64,000 nt of DNA from Parapedobacter soli (GTDB lineage Bacteria; Bacteroidota; Bacteroidia; Sphingobacteriales; Sphingobacteriaceae): positions 1 through 64,000 of the forward strand of contig NZ_JAMXAY010000001.1 of the NCBI RefSeq assembly GCF_025460835.1, written 5' to 3'. Made by a program: the position numbers and the translations under genes. This document shows, piece after piece, positions 25,808-44,403 of the stretch (the stretch's first letter is position 1; each line of letters opens with the position of its first letter). Below the pieces are notes generated by a model. The model saw only the letters and a list, made by a program, of their open reading frames with translations. It made no database searches and was not told where the DNA came from.

Positions 25808-28075
25808 TCAATACACCACCACCTCGTCGGTAAGCAATAGCGCATTGTGCACATTTGTGGCAACAACACGCACGTACCGTGCCGTCTGCTGGACATCGAA
25901 ATCGATCGAAAAGGTTTTGACCTCACGGAATCCACTGTCCGTAGCTGCTCCGTTGGTCACCGTACCGGCTTCTCTGAAATTTTTGCCGTTGTCGGAAAAA
26001 AGTACCGTCACCTCGCCGGGCAAATAGGCGTTGGCCGCCGGATCGCGCAAGAAGTCAATCGCCACCGAGTTGATTGCCTCCCGGCGCTGGAAATCGATGG
26101 TTATATCAACGTTGTTGACAAAACCCTGCCACTGCCCACCGCCGGTATGCTCGCCTCCCTTTTGGCCATTGAGCAGGGTACTGTCTTTTTGCGCGGGATA
26201 CGATGCATCCCACGCGGTTTGGTACACAATGTTTTTCCCGATTGCCTTATGGATGTCGGCTTTGGCCGTAGCAATGCCCCCCACACGTGCTGAATCTACA
26301 AAATAAGCTGCTTTGATGGTAGCCGGCACGGCCAATTCAATAGGCTTGGTGTACAGCGTAGAGCCCGCCACCGGGTCGCTCCCATCTGTGGTATAGTGGA
26401 TGCCCAACTCGTTTTGCTCCGTCGTCAACGAAACGGTATTGGTCAATGTGTCGGGATTGAAGTCCACATGGATATCAACGGCGTACGACGGCCGGTAATA
26501 ATTGACGTCCAACTGCTGCAATAGCCGGTAATGTGTTTGCAGCCGCTTATTGAAATCATCCCAATCGCGCCCCACGGGGTCGGACCACACCACCTCAGCG
26601 AGCGCGATAGCCCGCGGGAAGGCCATGTACTCCACCTGATCGGTAGTGGGCATGTATTCGGTCCAGATATTCCCTTGCGCACCTAGGATATGCTTCGCCT
26701 TGTCGGCAGCGAGCCCCGCAGGTATGGGATTGTAGCCATAAACTGCCTGCAACGGTATGTAACCCCCGATGGCTTCGGGCTCCGTACGCGGATTGCCTTG
26801 GTAATGATCGAAATAGAGGTGCGAATTGGGCGTCATTATCACATCATGCCCCGCATTGGCCGCTGCTAAGCCACTTTCTACATTCCGCCAACTCATCACA
26901 GTAGCATCTTTCGGCGCCCCGCCATCCAGGATCTCATCCCAGCCGATCAGCCTCCGCCCATTCGCCTGCAAAAAACTATCGATACGTGCTACGGCATAGT
27001 TCTGTAAGCCAGCTATACTGTCCACGCCCAATTGCTCCATGCGGGTCCTGCATTTAGCACATGTGCCCCAAGATGTCGTATCAACCTCGTCGCCACCGAT
27101 ATGGATGTATTTCGACGGGAATACAGCCATCACCTCCGTCAATACGTCCTTGAGGAACGTAAACGTTTTTTCATTTCCGATACAGAAAGCACTATGCTGG
27201 TAAGGCCGCCCCGTGCATGAAAGCTCGGGATAAACAGCCAGCACTTCTTCGGAGTGGCCGGGCATTTCGATTTCGGGAATGATGGTGATGCCCTTCCGCG
27301 CGGCGTAGGCAACCAATTGGCGCGCTTCTGCCTGTGTATAATAACCGCCGCTCGCGTTGGGCTCACCCATGTCGAGGTAACGCCGCCCATTGTGCCACCA
27401 ATCTTTCCAAGCCGGATGGGTACGCCAAGCAGACCGCTGCGTCAATGCCGGATATTTATTGATTTGCAGCCGCCAACCCGCGCCATCCGTAAGGTGCCAA
27501 TGGAATGTATTGAACTTGTAAAGCGCCATCAGGTCGATGAACTTTTCTAAAAAAGACACCGGGTAAAAGTGCCGGGAAACATCAAGGTGCAGACCCCGAT
27601 AGCCAAACCGCGGCTTATCTTCGATAACCATAGCGGGCAATCGCCTCCCATCGGGTTGTGTATAGGCCAGCTGGAGCACCGTCAATATACCGTTGAGCAT
27701 GGCGGGGGCTTGATGGGCCGTGATAACGATGCCCGATGTATCGACCACCAACCGATAGGCATCGTTGGTGAGCCGGTCTTCCGCCCGCGCCTGCACAAGC
27801 CTCACACCTGTTGCGGGTATACGCTTGTGTGACTTGATGCGCTCCACAGCCGTAAATTGGGCGAAGGGATGGTCATACAGCAGCGCAGCTACTTCCATAA
27901 AGGGCTCAAACGCGGCAAATGGCGTTGCGGAGGGGAATATATACCCCCCTTCATGCATCTCGACATGATTAGGTTTCGGGATAAGGGATACTTGATTTTG
28001 GGCGTAGGCAGGCGCCGCCAATAGCAGCGGTAAAACAAGCAATCCCAGTGAATATGGGGATACTTTTCGAGCCAT
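25808..28075 (-). CDS. Secreted GH20 beta-N-acetylhexosaminidase
   Basis: A 755-aa exo-hydrolase releasing terminal GlcNAc or GalNAc. A signal peptide ends at AYAQ. A GH20b N-terminal domain is followed by the (beta/alpha)8 catalytic domain with FRGLHLDVSRHFYPV-like text, HWHLTDGAGWRLQI, and the catalytic pair D329-E330 in HIGGDEVDTTSW. After the barrel come a chitobiase C-terminal-type module (GIHYTTDGSDPVAGSTLYT) and a discoidin/F5-F8-type C-terminal module ending in RYVRVVATNVHNALLL. It is convergent with the SDR gene (5 bp apart) and divergent from the regulator gene, and its function is not obviously part of the glucan locus. Confidence 0.95.
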   Translation of the reverse strand: MARKVSPYSLGLLVLPLLLAAPAYAQNQVSLIPKPNHVEMHEGGYIFPSATPFAAFEPFMEVAALLYDHPFAQFTAVERIKSHKRIPATGVRLVQARAEDRLTNDAYRLVVDTSGIVITAHQAPAMLNGILTVLQLAYTQPDGRRLPAMVIEDKPRFGYRGLHLDVSRHFYPVSFLEKFIDLMALYKFNTFHWHLTDGAGWRLQINKYPALTQRSAWRTHPAWKDWWHNGRRYLDMGEPNASGGYYTQAEARQLVAYAARKGITIIPEIEMPGHSEEVLAVYPELSCTGRPYQHSAFCIGNEKTFTFLKDVLTEVMAVFPSKYIHIGGDEVDTTSWGTCAKCRTRMEQLGVDSIAGLQNYAVARIDSFLQANGRRLIGWDEILDGGAPKDATVMSWRNVESGLAAANAGHDVIMTPNSHLYFDHYQGNPRTEPEAIGGYIPLQAVYGYNPIPAGLAADKAKHILGAQGNIWTEYMPTTDQVEYMAFPRAIALAEVVWSDPVGRDWDDFNKRLQTHYRLLQQLDVNYYRPSYAVDIHVDFNPDTLTNTVSLTTEQNELGIHYTTDGSDPVAGSTLYTKPIELAVPATIKAAYFVDSARVGGIATAKADIHKAIGKNIVYQTAWDASYPAQKDSTLLNGQKGGEHTGGGQWQGFVNNVDITIDFQRREAINSVAIDFLRDPAANAYLPGEVTVLFSDNGKNFREAGTVTNGAATDSGFREVKTFSIDFDVQQTARYVRVVATNVHNALLLTDEVVVY

Positions 28076-28106: not shown

Positions 28107-28152
28107 CAAACTTAGTCAAAACACCCAAATTATCCAATTATCGTTACCTTTG
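28107..28152. promoter_or_regulatory. Overlapping divergent promoters between GH20 and the regulator gene
   Basis: Minus strand: TAAGTTTG (28114-28107), with TTG 20 bp upstream (28137-28135), would drive the GH20 gene. Plus strand: TACCTTTG (28145-28152), 18 bp before the regulator ATG at 28171, has no clear -33 box. The two promoters share the same 45 bp, so transcription in one direction should hinder the other. Confidence 0.6.
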
Positions 28153-28170
28153 CGTTTCGCGCAATTGTCC

Positions 28171-31062
28171 ATGAAAAGAACCTTGCTCATTTGCTGTATT
28201 GTCGCCGCCTTTCTACATGGGTTCGCCCAACATCGGGTGGCTATTCCACAAATCATCAACTATAACAACAATGAGTACCGGGGCGGATTGCAGAATTGGG
28301 ATATCGCTCAGGATTCACAGGGCATCATGTATTTCGGCAATAACGAAGGGCTCCTCACCTTCAATGGCCGGTATTGGCATATTTTCCCACTGCCCAACTC
28401 AACCGTCGTCCGTTCAGTGGCTATCGACAAAAACAACCGCGTATTTGTAGGCGGGCAAGACGAGTTGGGTTACTTTGAAGCCGATTCGATGGGAAGGCTA
28501 CAATACCACTCCATGGTAGGCCTCATCCCCGAAACAGAACATAAATTCGCAGACGTGTGGAACATCGCCATAAGGGGCGATGAAGTATTCTTTAGAACCA
28601 ACAACAAGATTTTCCATTACAAAGACGGCCGCATGACGGTAGATAAGGCCGCTACCGAATGGCAGTTTCTCGGCATGGCCGAGGGGGCGCTATATGCACA
28701 TCTCATGCACCAGGGTATTATGCGGTATGACCAAGGTTTTTGGAAGCCGCTGACCAACCACCCCGACCTCGACGCAACTGTAATAACGGGTATCATGCCT
28801 TATAGCCAAGACACCTTATTGGTTACCACGCTGAAAAACGGCCTTTATTACCTCACCCATAATACGCTTATCCGCAAAGAAACACCGCTGGACGATTCGT
28901 TTATAGCAGACCGCATTTATTGCGGGTTACCGCTCAATGCAGATTGGTTTGTATTTGGCACCACATCGGCCGGCGTGCTTATTATGGACCGTGCAAACAA
29001 GCTGATACAACAATATGTGTATGGTGAGGGGCTTCAGAAAAACAACGTGCGTAAGGTGTTTGTAGACCGTAACCAAAACCTTTGGCTGGCCCTCGATGAT
29101 GGTATTGACTTCATCGCCGTGAATAGCGCCGTGAAATACATCCAACCCGACAAAACCAACCCTACGAGCAGCTACGCCATCCGGCTTTTTAACGAGCATT
29201 TGTATATTGGTACATCCAATGGCCTATACGCGTCGCCCATCGATGGCTCCCAATCAGACCTGAGCCTCTCCAATGCCGATTTTGCTGAAGTGGAAAATAC
29301 TGACGGGCAGGTATGGGGGCTCAATGAGATAAACAACCGGTTGCTGATGGCCCACGAAGACGGCGCGTTTGAGGTTGTGGGCGAAACGGCCCGCAACATT
29401 TACAGCATACCCGGTACCTGGTTGTTCCAACCGCTGTCCCGCGTTTTCCCCTCCGCACACGTCATCGCGGGGACTTACCTCGGCCTGCAACTGCTAACCT
29501 TCGGGGATAACCGCAATTTCCTGGATGCCGGACGGGTGGAAGGCCCCTATGAATCCCTGCGGTTTGCCCACTATGACGAAAGCAATAATAGTGTCTGGGC
29601 ATCACACCCCTACCGGGGCATCTTCAAGTTGCAGCTATCAGAAGACTATACTGCAGTAAGCCAGCAGAAAACCTATACCGAAACGGACGGGCTGCCATCC
29701 ACACTGTACAACTACCTCTTCCTGATCAAAAATAAAATTACCGTAGCCAGTAAAGACGGTATTTATGAATACGATGCCGAAACAGACACATTCATCCCAT
29801 CACCGGTATTTTACGAACGATTCCGCGGTATAGAACTCCAATACCTCAAAGAGGATAATGACGGGAATGTATGGTTTATGAGCCACAAAAAATTGGGGGT
29901 AGCCGATTTTAGCCAACCCAATGGCGACGAACCATTTACCATTACCTATTTCCCGGAACTCAACGGTAAAGTGCTGGGCGGCTATGAAACCATTTATGCA
30001 CTAAACGAGGAGAACATTTTCATCGGGGCCAATAAGGGTGCTATACACCTCAATTACAAACGGCACAAAGCAACGGTGAGCCGACCCGACATCCTACTTA
30101 GCCAGGTGACCGTGACAGCCGGCGACAAGCAGGAGCAGACACTGTATGGCGGGCACCATACAACTGATATCGCATCACCCGTGGTGGGTTATCAATCCAA
30201 TTCATTCCAATTTTCGTTTTCTACCACACTGTATGACCAACAAGACAACGTGGAGTTCACCTATATGCTGGAAGGGTTTGATAAGGGGTGGTCTACGTGG
30301 AGCAACCGCAGTGAAAAGGAGTACACCAACCTACCTCCCGGGCATTACACGTTTAAGGTGAAATCGAGGAATACCAAGGGAAATGAATCGGCTGTTAACG
30401 ATTATCACTTTGTGATAACACCACCTTGGTATGCCAACGCGATAAGTTATACCGTGTATGCCATGCTTATCTGCCTGTTGATTTTCCTCTTGTTTAAATG
30501 GCAGAAACGGAAGCTGCAGCAAAAGCACGAACGCGAACTGTACCTGAACCAACTGGAGCTTGACCAACGTGAAAAAGAGGTGGTAAGACTGAAAAATGAA
30601 AAGCTGGAAGCCGAAATAGATTTCAAAAACAAAGAACTGGCAAACATTACCATGCATTTGGTGCAGCGCGGCGAGGTGCTCGCCAAAATCAAAGAAACCA
30701 TTCTGTCTGTAGTCAAGAAACACGACTTCAACGACAGTACCATCAACTTCAGGCAACTCATCCGCCTGATCCGCAATGCGGAGCGCACCGATGAGGATTG
30801 GGAACAATTCAGCGTACATTTCAACCACGTTAACGAAGGCTTCTTTACTAACCTGAAAGAGCAATACCCCGACCTCACACCCAATGAACTCAAGCTGTGC
30901 GCTTTTCTACGGATGAATTTATCTTCCAAGGAAATTGCGCAGCTGATGAACATCACCATAAAGGCGGTCGAAGTGGGCCGCTACCGGTTGCGCAAGAAGC
31001 TTCGGCTCGACCCCGAGCAGAACCTTTACGAATTTTTGCTGCGTATGGCCACCAAAACCTAA
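28171..31062 (+). CDS. SusR-like one-component membrane regulator (beta-propeller, Y_Y_Y, LuxR-type HTH)
   Basis: A 963-aa sensor-regulator that probably activates the downstream glucan locus. A signal peptide (MKRTLLICCIVAAFLHGFAQ) leads into a periplasmic propeller of repeated two-component-propeller blades (IDKNNRVFVGGQDELGYF; VDRNQNLWLALDDGIDFI; DNDGNVWFMSHKKLG). A Y_Y_Y domain follows (VEFTYMLEGFDKGWSTWSNRSEKEYTNLPPGHYTFKV), then one membrane helix at about 757-777, a charged coiled coil and a C-terminal LuxR-type HTH (about 901-950, LTPNELKLCAFLRMNLSSKEIAQLMNI). No histidine kinase or receiver domain is present, so signalling passes straight from periplasm to DNA as in SusR. Confidence 0.93.
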   Translation: MKRTLLICCIVAAFLHGFAQHRVAIPQIINYNNNEYRGGLQNWDIAQDSQGIMYFGNNEGLLTFNGRYWHIFPLPNSTVVRSVAIDKNNRVFVGGQDELGYFEADSMGRLQYHSMVGLIPETEHKFADVWNIAIRGDEVFFRTNNKIFHYKDGRMTVDKAATEWQFLGMAEGALYAHLMHQGIMRYDQGFWKPLTNHPDLDATVITGIMPYSQDTLLVTTLKNGLYYLTHNTLIRKETPLDDSFIADRIYCGLPLNADWFVFGTTSAGVLIMDRANKLIQQYVYGEGLQKNNVRKVFVDRNQNLWLALDDGIDFIAVNSAVKYIQPDKTNPTSSYAIRLFNEHLYIGTSNGLYASPIDGSQSDLSLSNADFAEVENTDGQVWGLNEINNRLLMAHEDGAFEVVGETARNIYSIPGTWLFQPLSRVFPSAHVIAGTYLGLQLLTFGDNRNFLDAGRVEGPYESLRFAHYDESNNSVWASHPYRGIFKLQLSEDYTAVSQQKTYTETDGLPSTLYNYLFLIKNKITVASKDGIYEYDAETDTFIPSPVFYERFRGIELQYLKEDNDGNVWFMSHKKLGVADFSQPNGDEPFTITYFPELNGKVLGGYETIYALNEENIFIGANKGAIHLNYKRHKATVSRPDILLSQVTVTAGDKQEQTLYGGHHTTDIASPVVGYQSNSFQFSFSTTLYDQQDNVEFTYMLEGFDKGWSTWSNRSEKEYTNLPPGHYTFKVKSRNTKGNESAVNDYHFVITPPWYANAISYTVYAMLICLLIFLLFKWQKRKLQQKHERELYLNQLELDQREKEVVRLKNEKLEAEIDFKNKELANITMHLVQRGEVLAKIKETILSVVKKHDFNDSTINFRQLIRLIRNAERTDEDWEQFSVHFNHVNEGFFTNLKEQYPDLTPNELKLCAFLRMNLSSKEIAQLMNITIKAVEVGRYRLRKKLRLDPEQNLYEFLLRMATKT

Positions 31063-31126
31063 CCTTTACAGGTAGAAATATTCACTATTTTACAATAACT
31101 TAATATTCAACTAATTACAAACCAGC

Positions 31127-31196
31127 TGTAGGGGTATTGTAGCGCTAAAACTACCTGTTTCCGGCTTTTTTTCACCGGCTTGTAGGGGTATTGTAG
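31127..31196 (+). promoter_or_regulatory. Two direct repeats, candidate regulator-binding sites
   Basis: TGTAGGGGTATTGTAG occurs at 31127-31142 and again, identical, at 31181-31196, with starts 54 bp apart (about five helical turns). Each copy is itself TGTAG-N6-TGTAG, giving half-sites 11 bp apart. The second copy ends 34 bp before the putative -7 element of susC, the position expected of an activator site. The adjacent regulator with a LuxR-type HTH is the obvious candidate ligand. Confidence 0.7.
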
Positions 31197-31230
31197 AATA
31201 CCGTTATCTAGGTTTTCCTGTTCCAACAGC

Positions 31231-31238
31231 TAGTTTTG
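31231..31238 (+). promoter_or_regulatory. Putative -7 element of the glucan-locus promoter
   Basis: TAGTTTTG fits TAnnTTTG. No TTG or TTTG is present at the matching -33 position (about 31208-31211 reads CTAG), as expected for an activator-dependent promoter. The leader to the susC ATG is 72 nt. The rest of the 248-bp gap holds only the direct repeats. Confidence 0.5.
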
Positions 31239-31310
31239 TCTCATGCTTCTGCCGCAGGTAGGCAGGATGTATTGAACCAATTTTTTTAACCCTTAATAAT
31301 AGCAATTATT

Positions 31311-34300
31311 ATGAAAGAAGGAGTTTTACATGCATTGATGGTGCTGTGTATGTGCTTTTTACCGTTTGCGCTTGCCGCGCAAACACCCCTCCAAGTAACG
31401 GGTACGGTGACCGCAGCGGCAGACGGTAGGCCCCTGCCGGGCGTAACCGTAACAGTGCAGGGCGCAAGCACAGCAACGGGTACGGACGATTCCGGCCACT
31501 ACTCGATTACCGTGCCCGAAGCGGGCGCCACATTGGTATTCACCCAGCTGGGGATGGTCACACAACAACGGGTGGTGACCGCCGCCGGCATCGTCAGCGT
31601 GTCTATGGAAGAAGACCTGAGCACACTGGAAGAGGTGGTGGTCATTGGCTACGGCACACAGAAAAAAGCCGTGGTGACCGGGGCAATCACGAGCGTACGG
31701 GCAGATGACATCGAAAACCAGGTGGTGGGCCGCATCGAAACCGCACTGCAGGGACGTACATCGGGTGTTACCATCACCAGCAATTCGGGTGCTCCCGGGT
31801 CGGCTGCTACCATACGTGTTCGGGGGGTAACCACCCTGAACAACAACACTCCGCTTTATGTAGTAGACGGCGTAGTTGTTGACGCAGGCGGCATCGACTA
31901 CCTTAACATGTCCGATATCGAATCGATCGACGTGCTGAAAGATGCGGCCTCCGCCGCCATATACGGTACACGTGCCGCCTCGGGCGTTATTCTGGTGACC
32001 ACCAAAAAAGGCCGTTCAGGCGATATGGTAATCAATTACAACGGATACTACGGCACACAAGAACCCGCAAAAAAGCTGAATCTGCTCAATGCGACCGAAT
32101 ATGCGACCGTCCGCAACGAAGCATCGCTAAACGATGGCGGTGCCATCATCTACACAAACCCCGCCTCCTTGGGCGAAGGCACGGATTGGCAAAGTACCGT
32201 ATTCGAAAACAATGCCCCCATTCAAAACCACGAGCTGAGTATCAGCGGTGGGGGTGAGAAATCGACTTTCTATACCTCTTTCGGCTATTATGGCCAGGAC
32301 GGTGTAGTTACTCCCGAGATTTCAAACTACAACCGGTACAACGTACGTATCAATTCAGACCACAAGGTGAACAATTGGCTGCGGTTTGGCGAGAATCTGG
32401 GTTACTCGTTCATCAAAAGCCAGGGGTCTTTGAACCCCAATACCGAGTTTGGCGGGCCGCTGAGCTCAGCCATCAACCTCGACCCACTCACCCCGACGAT
32501 CATCACTGACGAAAGCCTGCTTAACCAACCGCCGTACAGCAACCAACCCGTGGTACGCGATGCGGCGGGCAATCCTTATGGGATATCGCCCAATGTGGCC
32601 CAGGAAATGACCAACCCATTAGCCTACGTAGACACACGGCTGGGAAATTACGGCTGGTCGCACAACATCGTCGGCAATGTCTATGCCGAGATAGAACCCA
32701 TCGAGGGGCTCCGCATACGGTCGACAGTAGGCTCTAAACTCGCCTGGTGGGGCGACGAGAGCTACAACGGCATTTACTACCTCAACGCGGCACAGAACCG
32801 ATCCACCACCAACTTCAACCGGAGCCGCAACCAGGGGTTCAACTGGAATATCGAAAATACCGTATCATATAGCCGGGAAATTGAGGGCCACAACTTTACG
32901 GTATTGCTGGGCCAAGGTGCTTACCTGGAAAACCTCACCAGCGGAATCAATATCAGCTTCAATAACATCGCAGCCAGCAATTTTGATGAGGCAACATTCA
33001 ACCTAAAAGTACCGACGAGCGACAGGCTAGCCGATGCGTACGACGGGATTACACACAACCTTTCGTCGCTGTTCGGCCGGGTCACCTATGATTACAAAGA
33101 GAAGTACCTGTTCACCGGTATCATCCGGCGCGATGGCTCATCCCGCTTCGGTGCCGACCGGAAGTATGGCGTATTCCCCTCGGCATCCGTGGGTTGGGTG
33201 CTGACCAACGAAGAATTCTGGACGCCCACAAACGCCCTGAATAACCTTAAAATCAGGGCATCTTACGGCGTAACCGGGAATGACAACATCGGCAACTTCC
33301 TTTATGTGCCTACCATCGGGATGGGTGGCGGCCGGAATTATATTTTCGGGGTAGACAACATGTATATCGGCGCAAGCCCTAATGCCCCCGCAAACCCTAG
33401 CCTGGGATGGGAAGAAACCAGCCAATTGGATATTGGCTTGGATGCCTCGCTCTTCAGCAACTGGAGCGCGACATTCGACTGGTTCGACAAAAAGACCACC
33501 GGTATCCTACGCCCGGTAGCTATACCGGGATACACCGGCCTGGGAACGCCGACGGCAAACCTTGCCGATCTGAAATCGACCGGTGTTGAGTTTGAACTGG
33601 GCTACCGGAAAAACATCGGCGACCTCAACCTAGGGATAAACGGTAACATCTCGCATACCACCAATACGGTAACCTTTCTTGGCGAAGACATCGCCTTTAT
33701 CGAAGACGGGGCGGGCGGCGTGCAGAATTTCGTACACGGCTTGCAACGTACTACCGTAGGCCATTCCTACAACTCATTTTACGGATACCGGATCGCGGGC
33801 GTATTCCAAAACCAAGCGGAAATCGATGCTTATGTGGGCCCAGAAGGAACCCGCATACAGCCCGGTGCGGTGCCGGGCGACTTTAAATGGGCCGATCTCG
33901 ACGGCGATGGCAGCATCACTTCAGAAGACCGGACATTTTTGGGCACCCCCATCCCAACCCTGACGTATGGCTTGACCATCAATGCAGCCTACAAAAATTT
34001 CGACCTGCTGGTATTTGGCCAGGGCGCAGCAGGCAATAAGATTTTCCAGGGCCTGCGTCGTCTGGACATTACCAACGCAAACTGGCACAATAAAATCCTA
34101 GGCCGATGGGTAGGCGAGGGAAGTACCAACGACCGCCCACGGGTTACACTGGCCGACCCGAACCAGAACTATTCGAAACCATCCGATTTCCACTTGGAAG
34201 ACGGCTCATACCTGCGTATCAAAACGGTCCAACTGGGATATACCCTCCCCACGGCATTGACCGGGAAAATCGGCCTTCGCAAAGTCCGCGCCTATGTAAG

Positions 34301-34439
34301 CAGCAACAACCTGTTTACACTGACCAGCTACACCGGCTACGACCCGGAAGTCGGCGGCGGCTCTGACGTATGGGGGATCGACACCGGGGTATATCCCCAA
34401 GCGCGCTCATTCCTCTTTGGTTTAAATCTTTCGTTGTAA
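31311..34439 (+). CDS. SusC/RagA TonB-dependent glycan transporter
   Basis: An outer-membrane importer of 1042 aa. A signal peptide ends at LAAQ. A carboxypeptidase-D-like domain (VTGTVTAAADGRPLPGVTVTV) precedes the TonB-box region LEEVVVIGYGTQKKAVVTGAI, the plug (IRVRGVTTLNNNTPLYVVDG; IESIDVLKDAASAAIYGTRAASGVILVTTK) and a barrel ending in an aromatic residue followed by a short tail (FLFGLNLSL). No STN domain is present, unlike the other SusC in this window. Control should therefore run through the SusR-like regulator and not an anti-sigma. The susD gene follows after 20 bp. Confidence 0.96.
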   Translation: MKEGVLHALMVLCMCFLPFALAAQTPLQVTGTVTAAADGRPLPGVTVTVQGASTATGTDDSGHYSITVPEAGATLVFTQLGMVTQQRVVTAAGIVSVSMEEDLSTLEEVVVIGYGTQKKAVVTGAITSVRADDIENQVVGRIETALQGRTSGVTITSNSGAPGSAATIRVRGVTTLNNNTPLYVVDGVVVDAGGIDYLNMSDIESIDVLKDAASAAIYGTRAASGVILVTTKKGRSGDMVINYNGYYGTQEPAKKLNLLNATEYATVRNEASLNDGGAIIYTNPASLGEGTDWQSTVFENNAPIQNHELSISGGGEKSTFYTSFGYYGQDGVVTPEISNYNRYNVRINSDHKVNNWLRFGENLGYSFIKSQGSLNPNTEFGGPLSSAINLDPLTPTIITDESLLNQPPYSNQPVVRDAAGNPYGISPNVAQEMTNPLAYVDTRLGNYGWSHNIVGNVYAEIEPIEGLRIRSTVGSKLAWWGDESYNGIYYLNAAQNRSTTNFNRSRNQGFNWNIENTVSYSREIEGHNFTVLLGQGAYLENLTSGINISFNNIAASNFDEATFNLKVPTSDRLADAYDGITHNLSSLFGRVTYDYKEKYLFTGIIRRDGSSRFGADRKYGVFPSASVGWVLTNEEFWTPTNALNNLKIRASYGVTGNDNIGNFLYVPTIGMGGGRNYIFGVDNMYIGASPNAPANPSLGWEETSQLDIGLDASLFSNWSATFDWFDKKTTGILRPVAIPGYTGLGTPTANLADLKSTGVEFELGYRKNIGDLNLGINGNISHTTNTVTFLGEDIAFIEDGAGGVQNFVHGLQRTTVGHSYNSFYGYRIAGVFQNQAEIDAYVGPEGTRIQPGAVPGDFKWADLDGDGSITSEDRTFLGTPIPTLTYGLTINAAYKNFDLLVFGQGAAGNKIFQGLRRLDITNANWHNKILGRWVGEGSTNDRPRVTLADPNQNYSKPSDFHLEDGSYLRIKTVQLGYTLPTALTGKIGLRKVRAYVSSNNLFTLTSYTGYDPEVGGGSDVWGIDTGVYPQARSFLFGLNLSL

Positions 34440-34459
34440 CCCTCAAAATAAGTAAGATC

Positions 34460-35974
34460 ATGAATAAGAATTCTCAATTATATGCAGCTGCTTTAGCAAT
34501 GACACTGCTTCTTGCCAGCTCCTGTTCCAAAGAGTTCCTCTCGCCCGATCCGAAGGGCACGCTCATGGAAGAGACCTATTACAGCAACCCCGATGAGGCG
34601 TTTGCGGGCCTGGTGTCGGTATATGACCCCGTAGGGTGGCAAACCGCCGTTACCTATTTCAATTTCGGCGCCGTAAACGCGGCCTCCGATGACCACGTTG
34701 CCGGTGGCGGCGGCCCCAATGACATGGAGACCTGGCAACGCTGGAGCAACTATACGCTCAACGAGTCCATCGGCCCCCAAGAAGACTATTGGGACCGGAA
34801 TTTCACCGGTGTATCGCGGGCCAATATCTTCATCAAAAAGATCGAAGCCGGCATACCGGGGCTCAGCGAGTCGCTTGCCGCCCGCTACATCGCGGAAGCG
34901 AAATTCCTTAGGGGCTACTACTATTTCGATTTGGTACGGTTGTTCCGCAACATCCCCTTCTATACCGAACCGCTGACAACAGACAACATGCGGGAACAAA
35001 CACAGGTGGCACCTGAAGTAGTATATGCACAAATCGAACAAGACCTGAAAGATGCGATAGCCTCGCTGCCAACTACCGTACCCGGTGCAACGGAAGGTGG
35101 ACGGGCTACCAAGGGGGCGGCCCAAGCGCTGCTCGGCAAGGTTTATATCTACCAGAAAAAGTGGAGCGACGCCGCTACCCAACTGGCCGAGGTGAACGGC
35201 ACACCCGGCGGCACCAGCCAATACGGCTACCACCTGCTGGACGACTTCGATGACCTCTTCCGTCCAGATAATAAATTCCATTCCGAATCGATTTTTGAAA
35301 TTGTGCATTCAGCCGTCGGTGCGCTGGACTGGGGTGCGTGGGGCGTGTTTTATGGCAACGTCGCAACGGTCATGTTCGGCCCGCGCGGCTATAGCGGCCC
35401 GTCTTATTATTCGGGATGGAGCTTCTGCCCCATCACGAAAGAGCTGTATGACTTGATGCACAGCGACCCGCGTTTTAAAGCAACGGTAGCCGACGTGGAT
35501 AGCTTGGAAAAAATCGGTGAGGCACAATACGAAAAAGGATACATGAATACGGGCTGGTTTATCCAGAAATATGCCCCCCTCGCCGAGTTTGCAGCCACCA
35601 ATGGCGTGCGCGAGCTGAACTATCCGCAAAATTACATCGAGATCCGGCTGGCCGACACATACCTCCTCGAGGCCGAAGCCCTCGTGGAAAGTGGCCAGGG
35701 TAGCGGTGCCGGCAGCCGTGCATACCAGCTGCTCAATGCCGTGCGCAACCGGGTAGGCCTCGGCCCCATCGAAGCTACGCTGGACAATATCTTCCTGGAG
35801 CGCCGCAAAGAGCTGGCAACCGAAGGCCATCGCTGGTACGACTTGGTAAGGTCTGGCCGCGCGCCCGCAGCATTGGCCGACCGCGGCTTCGTGGCCGGCA
35901 AGCACGAGGTGCTGCCCATCCCTTACAACGAACTGCTGAACACCCAGTTGGTACAGCACGAAGCGTATAAGTAG
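34460..35974 (+). CDS. SusD/RagB-family glycan-binding lipoprotein
   Basis: The partner of the preceding SusC. I chose the start MNKNSQLYAAALAMTLLLASSC, which opens a lipoprotein signal with lipobox ASSC; an earlier start inside susC would lengthen the protein by 30 residues. Landmarks are EAKFLRGYYYFDLVRLFRNIPF, RATKGAAQALLGKVYIYQKKW, YIEIRLADTYLLEAEALVES and RRKELATEGHRWYDLVR with the closing VLPIPYNEL. Length of 504 aa is usual. A beta-glucan ligand is inferred from the enzymes encoded downstream. Confidence 0.96.
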   Translation: MNKNSQLYAAALAMTLLLASSCSKEFLSPDPKGTLMEETYYSNPDEAFAGLVSVYDPVGWQTAVTYFNFGAVNAASDDHVAGGGGPNDMETWQRWSNYTLNESIGPQEDYWDRNFTGVSRANIFIKKIEAGIPGLSESLAARYIAEAKFLRGYYYFDLVRLFRNIPFYTEPLTTDNMREQTQVAPEVVYAQIEQDLKDAIASLPTTVPGATEGGRATKGAAQALLGKVYIYQKKWSDAATQLAEVNGTPGGTSQYGYHLLDDFDDLFRPDNKFHSESIFEIVHSAVGALDWGAWGVFYGNVATVMFGPRGYSGPSYYSGWSFCPITKELYDLMHSDPRFKATVADVDSLEKIGEAQYEKGYMNTGWFIQKYAPLAEFAATNGVRELNYPQNYIEIRLADTYLLEAEALVESGQGSGAGSRAYQLLNAVRNRVGLGPIEATLDNIFLERRKELATEGHRWYDLVRSGRAPAALADRGFVAGKHEVLPIPYNELLNTQLVQHEAYK

Positions 35975-36014: not shown

Positions 36015-36914
36015 ATGACAAGGATAATAACTGGGCTCTTGATAGCCACCATTGCCATGTATGGCTGCAAGGAAGAAAGATATAATTTAGGGAATATCCC
36101 TACCCCCGATTTCGAAGTGCAGGCCGGCAATGATGCCAACACGCTGGTATTCGTAAACAAAACCCCCGGTAGCTCCATAGCATACTGGGAAACAAGCACC
36201 GGACAAAAATTCAAAGGCGACAATGTATCTGCACGGTTCACGTTTGAGGGCCAATACGATGTGACCTTGACAGCCGTAACAGCAGGTGGTACCGCTACCG
36301 TAACCAAGCAGGTCTCAATCGCCCAAAGCGACCCGACGGCCTGCAACGCCGACCGCCCGCTGGGGTTCATCGCCGGGTGTACCGAAAAAGTATGGATGCT
36401 CAATCCCGAGGCTGGTGCGTATAAAGTAGGCCCCAGTCCTGACAACGGCGAGTGGTGGCAAAATACGGGCGACGACGTAACCAGCCGCGCCTGCGAGTTC
36501 AACGATGAGTACACATTTGTATTCAATGCCGAAGGGACGTTTAATTACGACAATAAGGGTGACTTCTACGCCGATGGATACCTTGGCGCGGGCTCCAGCG
36601 GCTGCGAACCGAATAGCAACCTCCCCGCAGCCCAACAACCGTGGGCGTCGGGCAACTTTGCGTTCAACGTAGTGGAAAACGGCGGTGTCCGTGGCTTTGG
36701 CCAGCTAACGGTGACCGGCGTAGGCGCACACATCGGCCTTCAAAAAGTCCACAACACCGGTGAAACGACATCAGGACCGACTGCAAACTCAATTACCTAC
36801 GATATCCTGGAAATGACCCAGAACGCAGGTGGGAAAGGATACGACATCTTGAAAGTAGGCGTTGATATTGGTGGTGGAACTTGGTGGACCTTCACCTTGC
36901 GTTCCGCAAATTAA
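36015..36914 (+). CDS. PKD-domain surface lipoprotein, probable glycan-binding protein
   Basis: A 299-aa lipoprotein (lipobox MYGC). An N-terminal PKD-like domain (PDFEVQAGNDANTLVFVNKTPGSSIAYWETSTGQKFKGDNV, with the strand ending VTLTAVTAGGTATVTKQVSI) is followed by an unrecognised C-terminal domain of about 170 residues. That domain is rich in Trp, Gly and Asn, begins VWMLNPEAGAYKVGPSP and ends WWTFTLRSA. Its position directly after susD is that of SusE-type surface glycan-binding proteins, so binding of the glucan is the likely role. Confidence 0.8.
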   Translation: MTRIITGLLIATIAMYGCKEERYNLGNIPTPDFEVQAGNDANTLVFVNKTPGSSIAYWETSTGQKFKGDNVSARFTFEGQYDVTLTAVTAGGTATVTKQVSIAQSDPTACNADRPLGFIAGCTEKVWMLNPEAGAYKVGPSPDNGEWWQNTGDDVTSRACEFNDEYTFVFNAEGTFNYDNKGDFYADGYLGAGSSGCEPNSNLPAAQQPWASGNFAFNVVENGGVRGFGQLTVTGVGAHIGLQKVHNTGETTSGPTANSITYDILEMTQNAGGKGYDILKVGVDIGGGTWWTFTLRSAN

Positions 36915-36976: not shown

Positions 36977-37834
36977 ATGAACAATTATCGCATGACCAGC
37001 TTTTTCTTGATCCCATTGCTACTCGTGGCCTGCGGAAAGGAAACGAGAAAGCCGAATATCCCCGAACCCCACCCCCCACAGCAAAAGGAGTATACCTTTG
37101 GTGCGGCAGCCTCATGGGCTGATGAATTTGACTATGAGGGGCTGCCCGACGAAGACAAATGGGGATATGACGTCGGCACCGGAAGCAGCGGCTGGGGCAA
37201 CAACGAGCTCCAGTACTATACGGAAAAGCGGATTGAAAATGCACGTGTAGGCAACGGTGTGCTGACAATCACGGCCATCAAGGAAGGCCACGAAGGGTCA
37301 GCCTATACCTCGGCCCGGTTGGTAAGCCGCGGAAAGGCCGATTTCTTGTATGGCCGCTTCGAGGTACGCGCCAAAGTGCCCCAAGGAGTGGGAACATGGC
37401 CCGCAGCTTGGATGCTGCCTACGGATTGGAAATACGGCGGGTGGCCCGCATCCGGCGAAATAGACGTCCTTGAGCATGTGGGGTACGACCAAGACCGGGT
37501 ACACATCAGTGTGCATACCGAGGCGTACAACCACGTAATAGGCACACAGAAAACGGCCAGCAAAAAAATCGAAAAGGCAACGACCGAATTCCACCTTTAT
37601 CGGGTAGACTGGACACCGGCATATATACGTGGTTATGTAGATGACGTGCAAATCTTCAACTTCCAGAATGAAGGGAGCGGCTACAAAGCCTGGCCTTTCG
37701 ACCAAAAGTTCCATTGGTTACTCAACCTGGCCGTAGGCGGCAATTGGGGTGGCGTAGAGGGTGTCGATGAAGCAGCATTCCCAGCAAGGATGGAAGTAGA
37801 TTACGTACGGGTATATCCGTTGATTGAAAATTGA
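36977..37834 (+). CDS. GH16-family beta-glucanase lipoprotein
   Basis: An endo-beta-glucanase, probably beta-1,3 (laminarinase type). The 285-aa chain has a lipobox ending at Cys19 (LLLVAC) and the GH16 active-site signature E161-I-D163-V-L-E166 in SGEIDVLEHVG; the extra residue between D and the acid/base E is the laminarinase form. Supporting segments are WADEFDYEGLPDEDKW, WGNNELQYYT, GRFEVRAKVPQGVGTWPAAWMLP and the C-terminal FHWLLNLAVGGNWGG. It would be surface- or periplasm-anchored and makes oligosaccharides for the SusCD pair. The next gene follows after 17 bp. Confidence 0.95.
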   Translation: MNNYRMTSFFLIPLLLVACGKETRKPNIPEPHPPQQKEYTFGAAASWADEFDYEGLPDEDKWGYDVGTGSSGWGNNELQYYTEKRIENARVGNGVLTITAIKEGHEGSAYTSARLVSRGKADFLYGRFEVRAKVPQGVGTWPAAWMLPTDWKYGGWPASGEIDVLEHVGYDQDRVHISVHTEAYNHVIGTQKTASKKIEKATTEFHLYRVDWTPAYIRGYVDDVQIFNFQNEGSGYKAWPFDQKFHWLLNLAVGGNWGGVEGVDEAAFPARMEVDYVRVYPLIEN

Positions 37835-37851
37835 AGCTTACTACCACGCAA

Positions 37852-39228
37852 ATGACGACTGCCAAACGGATAATAGGCCTGTTGGGTATCTGCGCAACCC
37901 TTGCTTGCGGCGGCAGCGAACCGCGTGTACCCAACATCCAGCAACCCGAGCCGGACCCACCCAAAGCACGTATTTCGCTATCGTTCGATAACCTCTCGCG
38001 CCTCCGGGCCGACGGGAAGAAAGTGGTGAATACCCAAAACCAAGAAGTGGTATTACGCGCCGTGGGCCTCGGTTACTGGCTGCTACAAGAGGGTTATATG
38101 CTTAATCCGCACGACCAAAGCAAAGCGGCCAACCAGTGGCAGATGAAACGGATTTACTATAACGAAGGACTATCGGAAGCCGATGTTGAACATTTTTATG
38201 CCGAGTGGCGCGACAACTTTATCACCCGAAAAGATGTCGATTATATCGCCTCATTGGGCTTCAATTCGGTTCGGCTGCCCATGCATTACGATCTGTTTCT
38301 CACAAAGGAACAACGGGCGGTAAGACATGAGGTGATCCGCGGACAGATTACGCTTCTCGACTATACCAACACCTTGGCCACATGGTATGATGCGGGCAAC
38401 TTGTTTGAACGCGACGACCTTGACGGATTTACAATCATCGACCAGCTGCTGGAATGGTGCGAAGCAAATAACCTTTACGTGGTGCTTGATCTCCACGCCG
38501 CCCCCGGCGGCCAGGGTACCGATGTGAACATTGCCGATGTGTTTGAGCCCAACCAATTCTGGCTGGGCCAAGATGGCCAAGGGAGATCCATCTACCAGGA
38601 TATTACCGTAAAGTTGTGGGAGCACATTTCAAAGCGGTATATCGACGACGACCGCATTGCGTGGTACGACCTCATCAATGAGCCGAACAATGTGCCGCGG
38701 AACCAGTGGATACGCGATATCCACGATCGAATCGTCAACGCTATCCGTGCCAATGGCGATACCCACCTCATCATGATAGAGGGAAATGGATGGGGTAATA
38801 ATTACAACGGCCTGCTGCCCGGCGACTTTACCAACAGCCAGAACCTGATATATAGTGCCCACCGGTATTGGATATCGGAGGCGGACGACCGGCAGGCCGA
38901 CCCCGACCCTAACCAGATAAACCGCATCCTCAACTTGGTCAACTTCAGAGACCGTGTGAATGTACCGGTTTGGGTAGGGGAGACGGGCGAGAATACAAAC
39001 GACTGGCTCCGCCAGAATATCCGTAAACTGGAAAATGCCGATATCGGATGGTGCCACTGGCCCCTCAAGCGGCACGATACCAACCCCAACGCGGCGCTCA
39101 TGCGCATACACGGCAACTTCCCTACAGATGGTGCCACCGCTATGGATGTGGTGCTGGAAAGTATAAAGTTTGAGAATTGTATCGTGAATACGGGTGCCGT
39201 GGCAGCCGCCGCACCCATACATTATTAA
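37852..39228 (+). CDS. GH5-family glucanase lipoprotein
   Basis: A (beta/alpha)8 glycosidase of 458 aa, with a lipoprotein-like leader (CATLACGG). I prefer the ATG at 37852; a TTG overlapping the GH16 stop would add seven residues. Conserved segments are GYWLLQEGYML, YIASLGFNSVRLPMHYDLF, VLDLHAAPGGQGTD, the acid/base E277 in DLINEPNN and the nucleophile E377 in VWVGETGEN. It is homologous to the GH5 encoded two genes downstream. Within this locus an exo- or endo-acting beta-1,3- or beta-1,6-glucanase is likely; the subfamily cannot be assigned by eye. Confidence 0.9.
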   Translation: MTTAKRIIGLLGICATLACGGSEPRVPNIQQPEPDPPKARISLSFDNLSRLRADGKKVVNTQNQEVVLRAVGLGYWLLQEGYMLNPHDQSKAANQWQMKRIYYNEGLSEADVEHFYAEWRDNFITRKDVDYIASLGFNSVRLPMHYDLFLTKEQRAVRHEVIRGQITLLDYTNTLATWYDAGNLFERDDLDGFTIIDQLLEWCEANNLYVVLDLHAAPGGQGTDVNIADVFEPNQFWLGQDGQGRSIYQDITVKLWEHISKRYIDDDRIAWYDLINEPNNVPRNQWIRDIHDRIVNAIRANGDTHLIMIEGNGWGNNYNGLLPGDFTNSQNLIYSAHRYWISEADDRQADPDPNQINRILNLVNFRDRVNVPVWVGETGENTNDWLRQNIRKLENADIGWCHWPLKRHDTNPNAALMRIHGNFPTDGATAMDVVLESIKFENCIVNTGAVAAAAPIHY

Positions 39229-39234
39229 CTAACG

Positions 39235-40653
39235 ATGATGGTTTCTGAAGCATTGGAAAAGCTCAATATTCTTTTTTTTGCTGCATTGGCATTGTTATCA
39301 ACCGGATGCTCACCATCCCGACCGGAGGTGGAAAACTGGCTTACGAACACACGCAATGGGTCGGTATTGTTCGAAAAGCAACTGCCTATACCCTGGGATG
39401 CCTCCAACGATGTCGCCACCGTCACCATCGAAATAGATAGCAACCAACGCTACCAAACGATCGATGGCTTTGGCTTCACCCTCACCGGGGGCAGCGCCTA
39501 TCATCTTATCCGGATGTCGCCCGACGTACGGGCAGCACTGCTCAAAGAGCTTTTCGATACCGAGGGCACCCACATTGGAGTGAGCTACTTACGCGTAAGC
39601 ATCGGGGCATCAGACCTCAACGTATATCCGTTTTCTTATAATGACCTGCCCCACGGCGAGACCGACCCCGACATGGCGCGGTTTGATCTTGGACCCGACC
39701 GCGATGATGTCATCCCTATATTGAAAGAAATACTAGCCATCTATCCTGAGCTGAAGATTATGGGCTCACCATGGTCGCCCCCCAAATGGATGAAGACCAA
39801 CAACGACACCCGCGGCGGAAGCCTGAGACCCATCTACTACCCGGCATACGCCAAATATTTCGTGCGATATATCGAGGAAATGCAGGCAGAAGGCATCCAC
39901 ATCGATGCGGTGACGGTACAGAACGAACCCCTCCACCCCGGCAACAATCCCAGCCTGCTGATGCTCGCCGACGAAATGGGCGACTTCGTGAAAAACCATT
40001 TAGGGCCCGCATTCGAGCAAGCCGGTATCACAACGAAAATCATCATTTATGACCATAATTGCGACCGCCCGGATTATCCAATCAGTATCCTGGATGACCC
40101 GGAAGCGAAAAAATACATCACCGGATCGGCGTTTCACCTTTATGGCGGCACCATCGACGCGCTCTCCGCAGTCCATGAGCGGCATCCCGACAAGGAGCTA
40201 CACTTTACGGAGCAATGGATAGGTGCCCCGGGCGACCTCTCTACCGACATGCCTTACCACATCAAGCATCTTACCATCGGCGCCACGCGCAACTGGAGCA
40301 GAACGGTATTGGAGTGGAACCTGGCCAACGGCCCCGACCACCAACCCCATACCGACCGCGGCGGCTGCGACCGTTGCCTCGGCGGCATCACCATTGCAGG
40401 CAACAGCGTGACACGTAATCCTGCGTACTACGTGGTAGCCCACGCGGCCAAATTCGTGCGCCCCGGCTCCATACGCATCGCATCCAACGAAGTAGAAGGG
40501 CTACCAAATGTGGCATTCCGAACACCGGCGGGCAATACCGCGCTGATTGTATTGAACGAAGGCAATGTGAGCCAAACATTCAGCGTAAAAAATGGCAAAA
40601 AACAATTTAATGCAACGCTCCAGCAGGGAGCGGTGGCGACTTACATTTTTTAA
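39235..40653 (+). CDS. GH30-family glycosidase lipoprotein, probable beta-1,6-glucanase
   Basis: A retaining glycosidase of 472 aa with lipobox STGC. The (beta/alpha)8 core begins at QTIDGFGFTLTGGSAYHL; SYLRVSIGASDL and GSPWSPPKWMKTN are strongly characteristic of GH30. The acid/base is E231 in VQNEPLHPGNN and the nucleophile E326 in HFTEQW. The C-terminal beta-domain (NPAYYVVAHAAKFVRPGSIRI; NTALIVLNEG) is normal. GH30 members in Bacteroidota glucan loci (GH30_3) cleave beta-1,6-glucan, which fits a beta-1,3/1,6-glucan substrate here; a glucosylceramidase-type activity is the alternative. The gene starts 6 bp after the GH5 gene. Confidence 0.92.
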   Translation: MMVSEALEKLNILFFAALALLSTGCSPSRPEVENWLTNTRNGSVLFEKQLPIPWDASNDVATVTIEIDSNQRYQTIDGFGFTLTGGSAYHLIRMSPDVRAALLKELFDTEGTHIGVSYLRVSIGASDLNVYPFSYNDLPHGETDPDMARFDLGPDRDDVIPILKEILAIYPELKIMGSPWSPPKWMKTNNDTRGGSLRPIYYPAYAKYFVRYIEEMQAEGIHIDAVTVQNEPLHPGNNPSLLMLADEMGDFVKNHLGPAFEQAGITTKIIIYDHNCDRPDYPISILDDPEAKKYITGSAFHLYGGTIDALSAVHERHPDKELHFTEQWIGAPGDLSTDMPYHIKHLTIGATRNWSRTVLEWNLANGPDHQPHTDRGGCDRCLGGITIAGNSVTRNPAYYVVAHAAKFVRPGSIRIASNEVEGLPNVAFRTPAGNTALIVLNEGNVSQTFSVKNGKKQFNATLQQGAVATYIF

Positions 40654-40665
40654 TACCGTATATAC

Positions 40666-42423
40666 ATGCAACAAAAGCTTTTCTTTATACTACCCCTCTT
40701 GGCGGCATTCGCATGGATGGCGTGCGACTCTAACCCCCATCCGAAAAATTTCCTTAAAGCCCAGGGCCACCACATCGTCAACGGACAAGGGGATACCGTC
40801 ATCCTACGCGGCATGGGGCTGGGCGGCTGGATGCTCCAGGAAGGATATATGTTTAAGCTCGGCTTCATCGGGCAGCAATACCGCATCCGCGAGCATATCG
40901 AAGATGTGATCGGCACCGCCGAAACGGACCGGTTCTATGCGGAGTGGCTAGCCAACCACACCCGGCGGATAGACATCGACTCGATGGCAGCATGGGGATT
41001 TAACTCCATCCGGTTGCCGATGCACTACAACCTCTACACCCTGCCGGTGGAAGAAGAACCCGTGGCCGGCGAGCAAACGTGGTTGGATATCGGCTTTACC
41101 ATGACCGACAGCCTGCTTGCATGGTGCAAGGCCAATAGCATGTACCTTATCCTCGACCTCCATGCCGCGCCCGGCGGCCAAGGCAACGACCTCAACATTT
41201 CGGACCGCGACCCGGCAAAACCTTCATTTTGGGAGAGCGAAGAAAACCGTACTAAGACAATCGCCCTCTGGCGCAAGCTGGCCGAACGTTACGCCCATGA
41301 AGAGTGGATAGGGGGGTATGATGTGCTCAATGAAACCAACTGGGGCTTTGAAGACTCCACGGATTTCCGCGGCATCGCCGAAAAAAGCAACGCTCCTCTA
41401 CGCCAATTCCTCATCGATGTAACCCATGCTATCCGCGAGGTGGATACCAACCACATCATCTTCTTGGAGGGCAACGGCTTCGCCAACAACTACAACGGCA
41501 TATTTCCCAAATGGGACAGCAACCTCGTGCTGAGCTTCCACAAATACGGCAACCCAAATGTACAAGAGGCTATCCAGCGTTTTCTAGACCTACGCGAGGA
41601 ACATGATATACCGCTGTGGCTGGGCGAATCAGGCGAAAATTCCAACACTTGGTTTACCGAAGCCATCGAACTGTGCGAAACCAACGGCATCGGTTGGGCA
41701 TGGTGGCAAAACAAAAAAATGGGCATCAACCAACCGTTGGAAATCAAACAGCCTGAAGGTTATGGAAAGCTACTGGACTATTGGGCAGGGGAAGGCGAGA
41801 AGCCTACCACGGCAGATGCGCTGCAAACACTGAATGAATGGCTGGAAAATCTTAAGCTAGAAAACAATATCTTCCACCGCGACGTGGTAGATGCCATGTT
41901 CCGCCAAATATATACACGCGACGCGATTCCCTTTGGCGAAAACCGGATTACAGCGGGCACCATCTTACCGGCAGTCGATTTCGATATGGGCCGGCAGGGG
42001 GCCGCATATTTCGATACCGACACTGCAAGTTACCACTACACACCGGGCATGAACACACAGGGCAACCGCGGCCGCAGCTACCGCAATGATGGAGTGGATA
42101 TACAACCCGACTCGACAGGGCACCATATTTTCCATATTAAAGACGGCGAATGGCTGCAATACACCATAAACGTCATAGACGAAGCAATTACCAGTTTGTC
42201 GCTATGTGTAGCCAGCAAAACGGGAACCGGGCGCATTACGTTGCTTATCGACGGTCAAGTATTATCCGACCCTATCGCAGTGCCCGCCACCGGTGGCAGC
42301 CAGCAATGGGCCTATATACCGATAGACATCCCGGAACTGACAACAGGGAAACATGTATTGCGGGTGCGCGCCGATATTGGAGGTTTCAACTTCAAATCGA
42401 TTGCGTTTGGGAAGCAGTACTAG
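40666..42423 (+). CDS. GH5-family glucanase with C-terminal CBM6
   Basis: A two-domain lipoprotein (585 aa; Cys after AFAWMA). The catalytic domain resembles the GH5 encoded upstream: GMGLGGWMLQEGYMF, AAWGFNSIRLPMHYNLYT, LDLHAAPGGQGND. The acid/base is E223 in VLNETNWG, where the usual N-E-P is N-E-T, and the nucleophile is E321 in WLGESGENSN. A CBM6-like module follows from about residue 430 (VDIQPDSTGHHIFHIKDGEWLQYTINV; LTTGKHVLRVRADIGGFNFKSIAF). CBM6 modules often bind beta-1,3-glucan ends or chains. It is the last gene of the locus; the 46-bp convergent gap to the argE-like gene has no obvious terminator. Confidence 0.92.
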   Translation: MQQKLFFILPLLAAFAWMACDSNPHPKNFLKAQGHHIVNGQGDTVILRGMGLGGWMLQEGYMFKLGFIGQQYRIREHIEDVIGTAETDRFYAEWLANHTRRIDIDSMAAWGFNSIRLPMHYNLYTLPVEEEPVAGEQTWLDIGFTMTDSLLAWCKANSMYLILDLHAAPGGQGNDLNISDRDPAKPSFWESEENRTKTIALWRKLAERYAHEEWIGGYDVLNETNWGFEDSTDFRGIAEKSNAPLRQFLIDVTHAIREVDTNHIIFLEGNGFANNYNGIFPKWDSNLVLSFHKYGNPNVQEAIQRFLDLREEHDIPLWLGESGENSNTWFTEAIELCETNGIGWAWWQNKKMGINQPLEIKQPEGYGKLLDYWAGEGEKPTTADALQTLNEWLENLKLENNIFHRDVVDAMFRQIYTRDAIPFGENRITAGTILPAVDFDMGRQGAAYFDTDTASYHYTPGMNTQGNRGRSYRNDGVDIQPDSTGHHIFHIKDGEWLQYTINVIDEAITSLSLCVASKTGTGRITLLIDGQVLSDPIAVPATGGSQQWAYIPIDIPELTTGKHVLRVRADIGGFNFKSIAFGKQY

Positions 42424-44330: not shown

Positions 44331-44347
44331 TTTATCTATTGTCTATT

Positions 44348-44403
44348 GTCTCACGTCTCTTATCTCACGTCTCTTGTCTCACGTCTCTTGTCTCACGTCT
44401 CTC
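44348..44403. repeat. 14-bp tandem repeat, four copies, between argB and proC
   Basis: The unit GTCTCACGTCTCTT is repeated head to tail four times (44348, 44362, 44376, 44390), with one base change in copy two and one in copy four. A shorter TCTATTGTC duplication adjoins it at 44337-44350. On the transcribed strand it reads AAGAGACGTGAGAC. It fills the whole 77-bp gap up to the argB stop codon. Confidence 0.9.

Follow-up and report, generated by a model that had tools for sequence, protein, structure and literature searches.

Between the gene of a SusR-like regulator and the susC-led operon downstream of it, the DNA of Parapedobacter soli carries two identical 16-bp boxes; the question raised by this locus is whether the pair is the operator of that regulator, and how it would be read. 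The window, i.e., the whole stretch of 64,000 nucleotides that was analyzed, contains the following features at the locus, all on the forward strand:

28150-31062, +: SusR-like regulator gene; periplasmic propeller (Reg_prop), Y_Y_Y domain, apparent membrane helix, long coiled coil, C-terminal LuxR-type helix-turn-helix (HTH) (Pfam)
30874-31029, +: predicted DNA-binding HTH of LuxR/NarL type, residues 909-960 (GerE match; profile matches to EsrB and VraR)
31127-31142, +: box A; half-sites TGTAG at 31127 and 31138; exact, conserved at orthologous loci
31181-31196, +: box B; half-sites TGTAG at 31181 and 31192; sequence of box A, 54 bp downstream
31231-31238, +: -7 promoter element TAGTTTTG (TAnnTTTG), starting 34 bp after box B
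31311-34439, +: susC-like TonB-dependent receptor, first gene of the operon (Pfam Plug, CarbopepD_reg_2)
34370-35974, +: susD-like lipoprotein (Pfam SusD_RagB, SusD-like_3); listed start overlaps susC
36015-36914, +: protein of the same operon, no match in the Pfam search
36977-37834, +: GH16 glucanase (Pfam); a homologue directly follows the site in two other genomes
37831-39228, +: GH5 enzyme (Pfam Cellulase)
39235-40653, +: GH30 enzyme (Pfam Glyco_hydro_30 and 30C)
40666-42423, +: GH5 enzyme with CBM6 (Pfam), last gene of the operon; genes on the opposite strand follow in the ORF list

Regulator, double box and operon

The regulator combines a Reg_prop and Y_Y_Y sensor (39.4 and 56 bits, both above cut-off) with a C-terminal HTH and adjoins susC, susD and glycoside hydrolase genes, all features of SusR-like regulators. 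A hydrophobic stretch precedes the coiled coil (translation read by eye); Pfam detects neither a kinase nor a receiver domain, and the C-terminal HTH stands in place of a kinase/receiver/AraC module. In the full-length protein the GerE match, at 19.3, stays under the cut-off of 23.5; the HTH is nevertheless of LuxR/NarL type as judged from profiles, since GerE is matched by all 14 aligned C-termini (the window regulator and 13 relatives, with E values up to 1) and EsrB and VraR are among the nearest solved chains in a profile comparison of the C-terminus. Structure prediction gave mean pLDDT values of 59.3 and 58.0 in two models, and its HTH part is not trusted.

The substrate of the operon is probably a beta-1,3/1,6-glucan, because the enzyme families of the locus are GH16, GH30 and GH5; the true start of susD probably lies later than the listed one. 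A GH20 hexosaminidase gene (25808-28075) is divergent from the regulator gene; no exact copy of the box was found in front of it, and it probably lies outside the regulon.

The sequence TGTAGGGGTATTGTAG occurs as an exact 16-mer at 31127-31142 and 31181-31196 on the forward strand, with TGTAG at positions 0 and 11 of each copy, i.e., as a direct repeat with an 11-bp period; both copies lie between the end of the regulator gene (31062) and the start of susC (31311), with 64 bp from gene end to box A. The downstream element TAGTTTTG matches the -7 consensus TAnnTTTG (as in PMC7366714), and no TTTG or TTG was found upstream of it at a spacer of 18-22 bp. On these points the first-pass annotation, which had described two identical 16-bp copies with TGTAG 11 bp apart and starts 54 bp apart, followed by a -7 element without a -33 box, is exact to the base. 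The absence of a -33 box was considered as a sign of activator control and dropped.

Among the best 10 of 13 repeated 16-mers in the window, TGTAGGGGTATTGTAG is the only one that is repeated less than 100 bp apart outside the interval 44341-44402; the other nine of these 10 come from the tandem array in that interval, which consists of 4.4 copies of the 14-bp unit GTCTCTTGTCTCAC. The loose motif TGTAG-N6-TGTAG (at most one mismatch) occurs four times in the window vs. 1.91 times expected, a count equaled in 12 of 100 shuffles and not significant by itself; the decision therefore falls to the comparison across genomes. The whole genome contains two exact copies of TGTAGGGGTATTGTAG and five matches with two mismatches. 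Further targets in the same genome were considered and rejected, since the reversed pattern also gives five matches; in the stretch examined around the four two-mismatch matches outside the locus, neither a paired box nor a -7 element at 34-35 bp was found.

Recurrence and helical phasing of the double box

The strict double-box pattern allows 22-50 bp between the boxes (box starts 38-66 bp apart), with the reversed pattern as control. The first-pass annotation had suggested looking for the motif at orthologous loci and had named its absence there as evidence against a regulatory target; the double box was found where the regulator gene meets susC, in 50 of the 301 family genomes, exactly once in each, and the reversed pattern in none. 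A search of 395 genomes of the phylum returned three matches (the genome itself, G041 of the same family, and G646 of another family) vs. one for the control. On this comparative evidence, the box pair is far beyond chance. The anatomy of the site was examined in 51 distinct sites with flanks, the 50 family sites and that of G646; they are phylogenetically uneven, many of the 51 coming from one genus and not being independent. A homologue of the regulator with the same HTH lies in the flank of 49 of the 51 (one 1.6 kb away, one divergent), and the next gene is susC in 49; in G051 and G011 the site precedes a homologue of the GH16 gene of the present operon (translation read by eye).

Of the loci around the 30 best homologues of the regulator, 15 have an exact TGTAG-N6-TGTAG in the 700 bp that follow the regulator gene, and 10 of these have it twice. 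At the other 15 loci, with TGTA[GA] allowed as first half, a copy was found upstream of the regulator in nine, eight of them on the opposite strand and pointing towards the divergent gene; six of the 30 loci show no copy on either side at this strictness. These arrangements bear on the possibility that the repeat works at the RNA level, terminating the regulator transcript or serving it as a leader element. In the present genome it does follow the 3' end of the regulator gene; yet a search of 31050-31330 gave no terminator-like site, both boxes precede the -7 element, and at divergent loci they flank the regulator gene on its opposite side and point to the target gene. An RNA element is thus a very improbable explanation, and the least probable of those considered here.

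The distance between box starts takes few values: 54 bp in 24 sites, 53 in 19, 55 in two, 44 in three and 43 in three. Although 38-66 bp were permitted, only 43-44 or 53-55 bp occur, and the strict set contains no intermediates. TGTAG copies are correspondingly placed at -55 to -53, -44 to -42, 0 and +11 relative to box B, other offsets being rare (-33 and -32, in three promoters each); on the reverse strand, there are five copies in total across the 51 promoters. On a maximum-likelihood tree of the regulators (quick method, 55 rows), the four-turn class (43-44 bp) and the five-turn class (53-55 bp) are connected by four switches, all forced by well-supported branches, with two labels that feed them being a long branch (L018) and a weaker site (L027). 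Among the sites compared, the inter-box distance changes only by whole helical turns.

The distance to the promoter is similarly constrained. The distance from box B to the start of an exact TAnnTTTG is 34 bp in 31 of the 51 sites, 35 bp in 14 and 46 bp in one; the -7 element is thus found at 34-35 bp in 45 sites, and the one at 46 bp is a turn further away. The remaining five sites have, in place of an exact TAnnTTTG, TAnnTTT-like elements at about 31-34 bp.

It may be asked whether box B functions alone, with box A being a remnant or binding something else. The fixed distance to the -7 element is held by box B alone, only one exact copy is present at L018-L020 and L024-L025, and L028 and L029 have one exact or clear box; however, L018-L020 and L024-L025 retain a second, degenerate box (at 43, 44 or 54 bp), and the four class changes have all left the spacing between A and B at whole turns, which an idle box A would hardly explain. 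A solitary functional box B therefore appears unlikely, and a site composed of both boxes is preferred.

Phasing was also examined by a test that does not presuppose the motif, in which four similar 8-mers were sought at 0, 11, D and D+11 (D from 24 to 100) in 93 susC promoters, each compared with 100 dinucleotide shuffles; L037-L041 and L058-L061 were left out of the promoter scans as duplicate or partial. A p value of 0.01 is reached by 45 of the 93 promoters and missed by 48. Of the 57 promoters chosen independently of the motif, 22 are significant, at D values of 33 (five promoters), 42, 43 (two), 44, 53 (seven), 54 (three), 55, 58 and 64; 21 of these 22 spacings are in phase, vs. 31% of the possible D values, and the only one out of phase, 58, belongs to the T-rich promoter L064. 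The 35 non-significant promoters of this group, 17 of them in phase, include nearly all of a clade with 33% identity that is discussed below. Weak pairs at 29, 30, 42, 51, 56, 60, 61, 65, 70, 89 and 92 bp were not counted, each having a box that scores below 10.

All five cases with D=33 come from one other family (f15), in which the half-sites stand at 0, 11, 33 and 44 in five of five susC promoters, in the form TGATGTATTTT TGATGTATTCA, 11 bp, TGAAGTAGCAT TGATGCACC, or close variants. The divergent susC promoter L202 of G122, from another family, has AAACGTAG repeats at 0 and 11 bp, followed by a related repeat at 32 bp, and is a candidate three-turn operator (D=32). At L141, L149 and L164, a fifth, degenerate half-site, e.g., TTGAGGGC, was observed 11 bp before box B; the half-site array may therefore be longer than four in some promoters.

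Other loci do not follow this pattern. Several divergent orthologues have one clear box only; the distant LuxR-HTH homologues examined in G101 (five) and G145 (one) have no adjoining susC and show no clear double box. The clade with 33% identity, to which the second SusR-like gene of the present genome belongs (at C91), was not counted as support, since it does not fit the 11-bp repeat: elements of GATGTAG type stand before its susC genes and are repeated 8 bp further on, and at L071, L075 and L077 these elements are 96-97 bp apart, or about nine turns. At L062, L065 and L067, three of the eight loci examined in the genus Parapedobacter, the paralogous second SusR-like gene is itself preceded by as many as four direct repeats of CCCTAT type, spaced with an 11-bp period; this array is perhaps an autoregulatory operator of the same layout.

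Linkage to the HTH and proposed operator

Within the first 91 genomes, the strict double box is present in 17 of 28 that have an orthologue of the regulator (at least 1000 bits) vs. one of 63 others (p = 2.9e-10). The lone exception, G009, encodes a 7TMR-DISM sensor joined to a coiled coil and an HTH 59% identical to that of the window protein, and this fusion gene stands directly before a double box (spacing 44) that is followed by susC; read from these genes, the sensor has changed while HTH and site stayed, a natural sensor swap. Both the G009 protein (L133, G009:C12) and that of L104 combine 7TMR-DISM with the same coiled coil and LuxR-type HTH, and their genes adjoin a double box and susC. 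In G060 and G027, a strict site precedes susC (G060:C5 and G027:C85), but the best regulator homologue lies on a different contig, the contigs being pieces of drafts, and no regulator homologue was found within 4.2 kb upstream of the site. The association across genomes, the sensor swap and these unlinked sites connect the site with this regulator's HTH, in agreement with the first-pass annotation, which had taken the boxes for its probable target.

The connection between boxes and SusR-like protein has been drawn from sequence, and several other regulators sense glycans in the phylum (PMC3878776); it could be argued that another regulator of the locus binds the boxes and that the SusR-like neighbor is a bystander. 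Such a second regulator would need to share the same pattern: the site tracks the HTH through the 91 genomes, and it persists where another sensor half has been substituted, as well as at the unlinked susC loci of two genomes. This explanation is accordingly rated as quite improbable.

Recurrence, spacing, distance to the -7 element and co-occurrence with the HTH together argue for the preferred reading, namely that the boxes are the operator of the SusR-like activator encoded just upstream, formed by four direct half-sites on one DNA face, and that it activates the susC operon; a probability of about 0.88 is assigned to it, and we infer binding, stoichiometry, activation and inducer. The tandem orientation, the four half-sites, their position on one face and the fixed promoter distance follow from the sequences. 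Each box contains two direct half-sites TGTAGKG 11 bp apart, approximately one helical turn, which would allow four LuxR-type HTH domains to line up in tandem along a single DNA face. Tethered to the inner membrane, each coiled-coil dimer would contribute two HTH domains; probably two such dimers, or else a dimer of dimers, would occupy the two tandem half-site pairs on the same face, five turns apart here, four in some relatives and three in another family. With its distance of 34-35 bp from the -7 element, box B would place the regulator beside an RNA polymerase that lacks a good -33 element, and contact between the two is possible. Sensing of a beta-glucan oligosaccharide by the periplasmic propeller would then lead to activation of the susC-susD-GH16-GH5-GH30-GH5 operon.

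Relation to known regulators

PhoB binds tandem half-sites one helical turn apart (11-bp period) in head-to-tail orientation; it has an OmpR-type winged helix and its sites are adjacent. The present regulator differs in its LuxR-type HTH and in half-site pairs that are several turns apart. Hybrid two-component regulators (HTCS) carry kinase, receiver and AraC-type domains, none of which Pfam detects in the regulator described here. The HTCS regulators of Bacteroidota resemble it in having a sensor beside susCD and predicted direct-repeat targets, with HTCS sites about 21 bp apart in the account given by PMC3878776.

The closest parallel is found in SusR-like proteins of Bacteroides. SusR is the regulator of the first polysaccharide-utilization locus, and in B. 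thetaiotaomicron it responds to maltose/starch, whereas the GH16, GH30 and GH5 enzymes of the present locus point to beta-glucans. According to PMC3878776, SusR of B. thetaiotaomicron is a periplasmic sugar sensor with a C-terminal HTH that activates a susC-containing operon, as the present regulator would. The DNA targets of such regulators had been called poorly known in the first-pass annotation, a statement that has to be corrected: in the same account, motifs of SusR, SusR2, SusR3 and SusR4 were already predicted for Bacteroides in 2013 as two-box direct repeats on one side of the DNA, with box centers 67 or 77 bp apart, equivalent to six or seven turns, and SusR3 (BT3309) adjoins predicted glycosyl hydrolases (PMC3878776). 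The mechanism of SusR is called undefined in PMC6874557; in the open-licence PubMed Central literature, as far as its accessible text extends, no measured binding site of a SusR-like regulator was found, only the predicted ones of Bacteroides.

The site follows the same principle as the Bacteroides motifs in their published description: a direct repeat of two boxes with a long spacer, on one DNA face, before targets of SusR-like regulators. Set against that description, the present site shows a clear 11-bp inner repeat, of which the passages compared on the Bacteroides motifs make no mention, and shorter spacings of three, four and five turns: in contrast to 67 or 77 bp, the boxes are 54 bp apart here, 43-44 or 53-55 bp in the family, and 33 bp in another family. 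A generalization is favored, with considerable reserve: SusR-like activators may use a quantized operator of two tandem half-site pairs at whole-turn separations (three, four and five here; six and seven predicted in Bacteroides), on which four HTH domains of a membrane-anchored oligomer would align on one face at a fixed distance from the polymerase, and the HTH-operator module would be separable from the sensor, as in the 7TM fusion.

With its half-sites, phase and polymerase distance precisely specified, the operator makes binding, stoichiometry and spacing directly testable, and its grammar can be used to trace SusR regulons together with their unlinked targets; the HTH-operator module could be used for glycan-responsive expression in environmental Bacteroidota.
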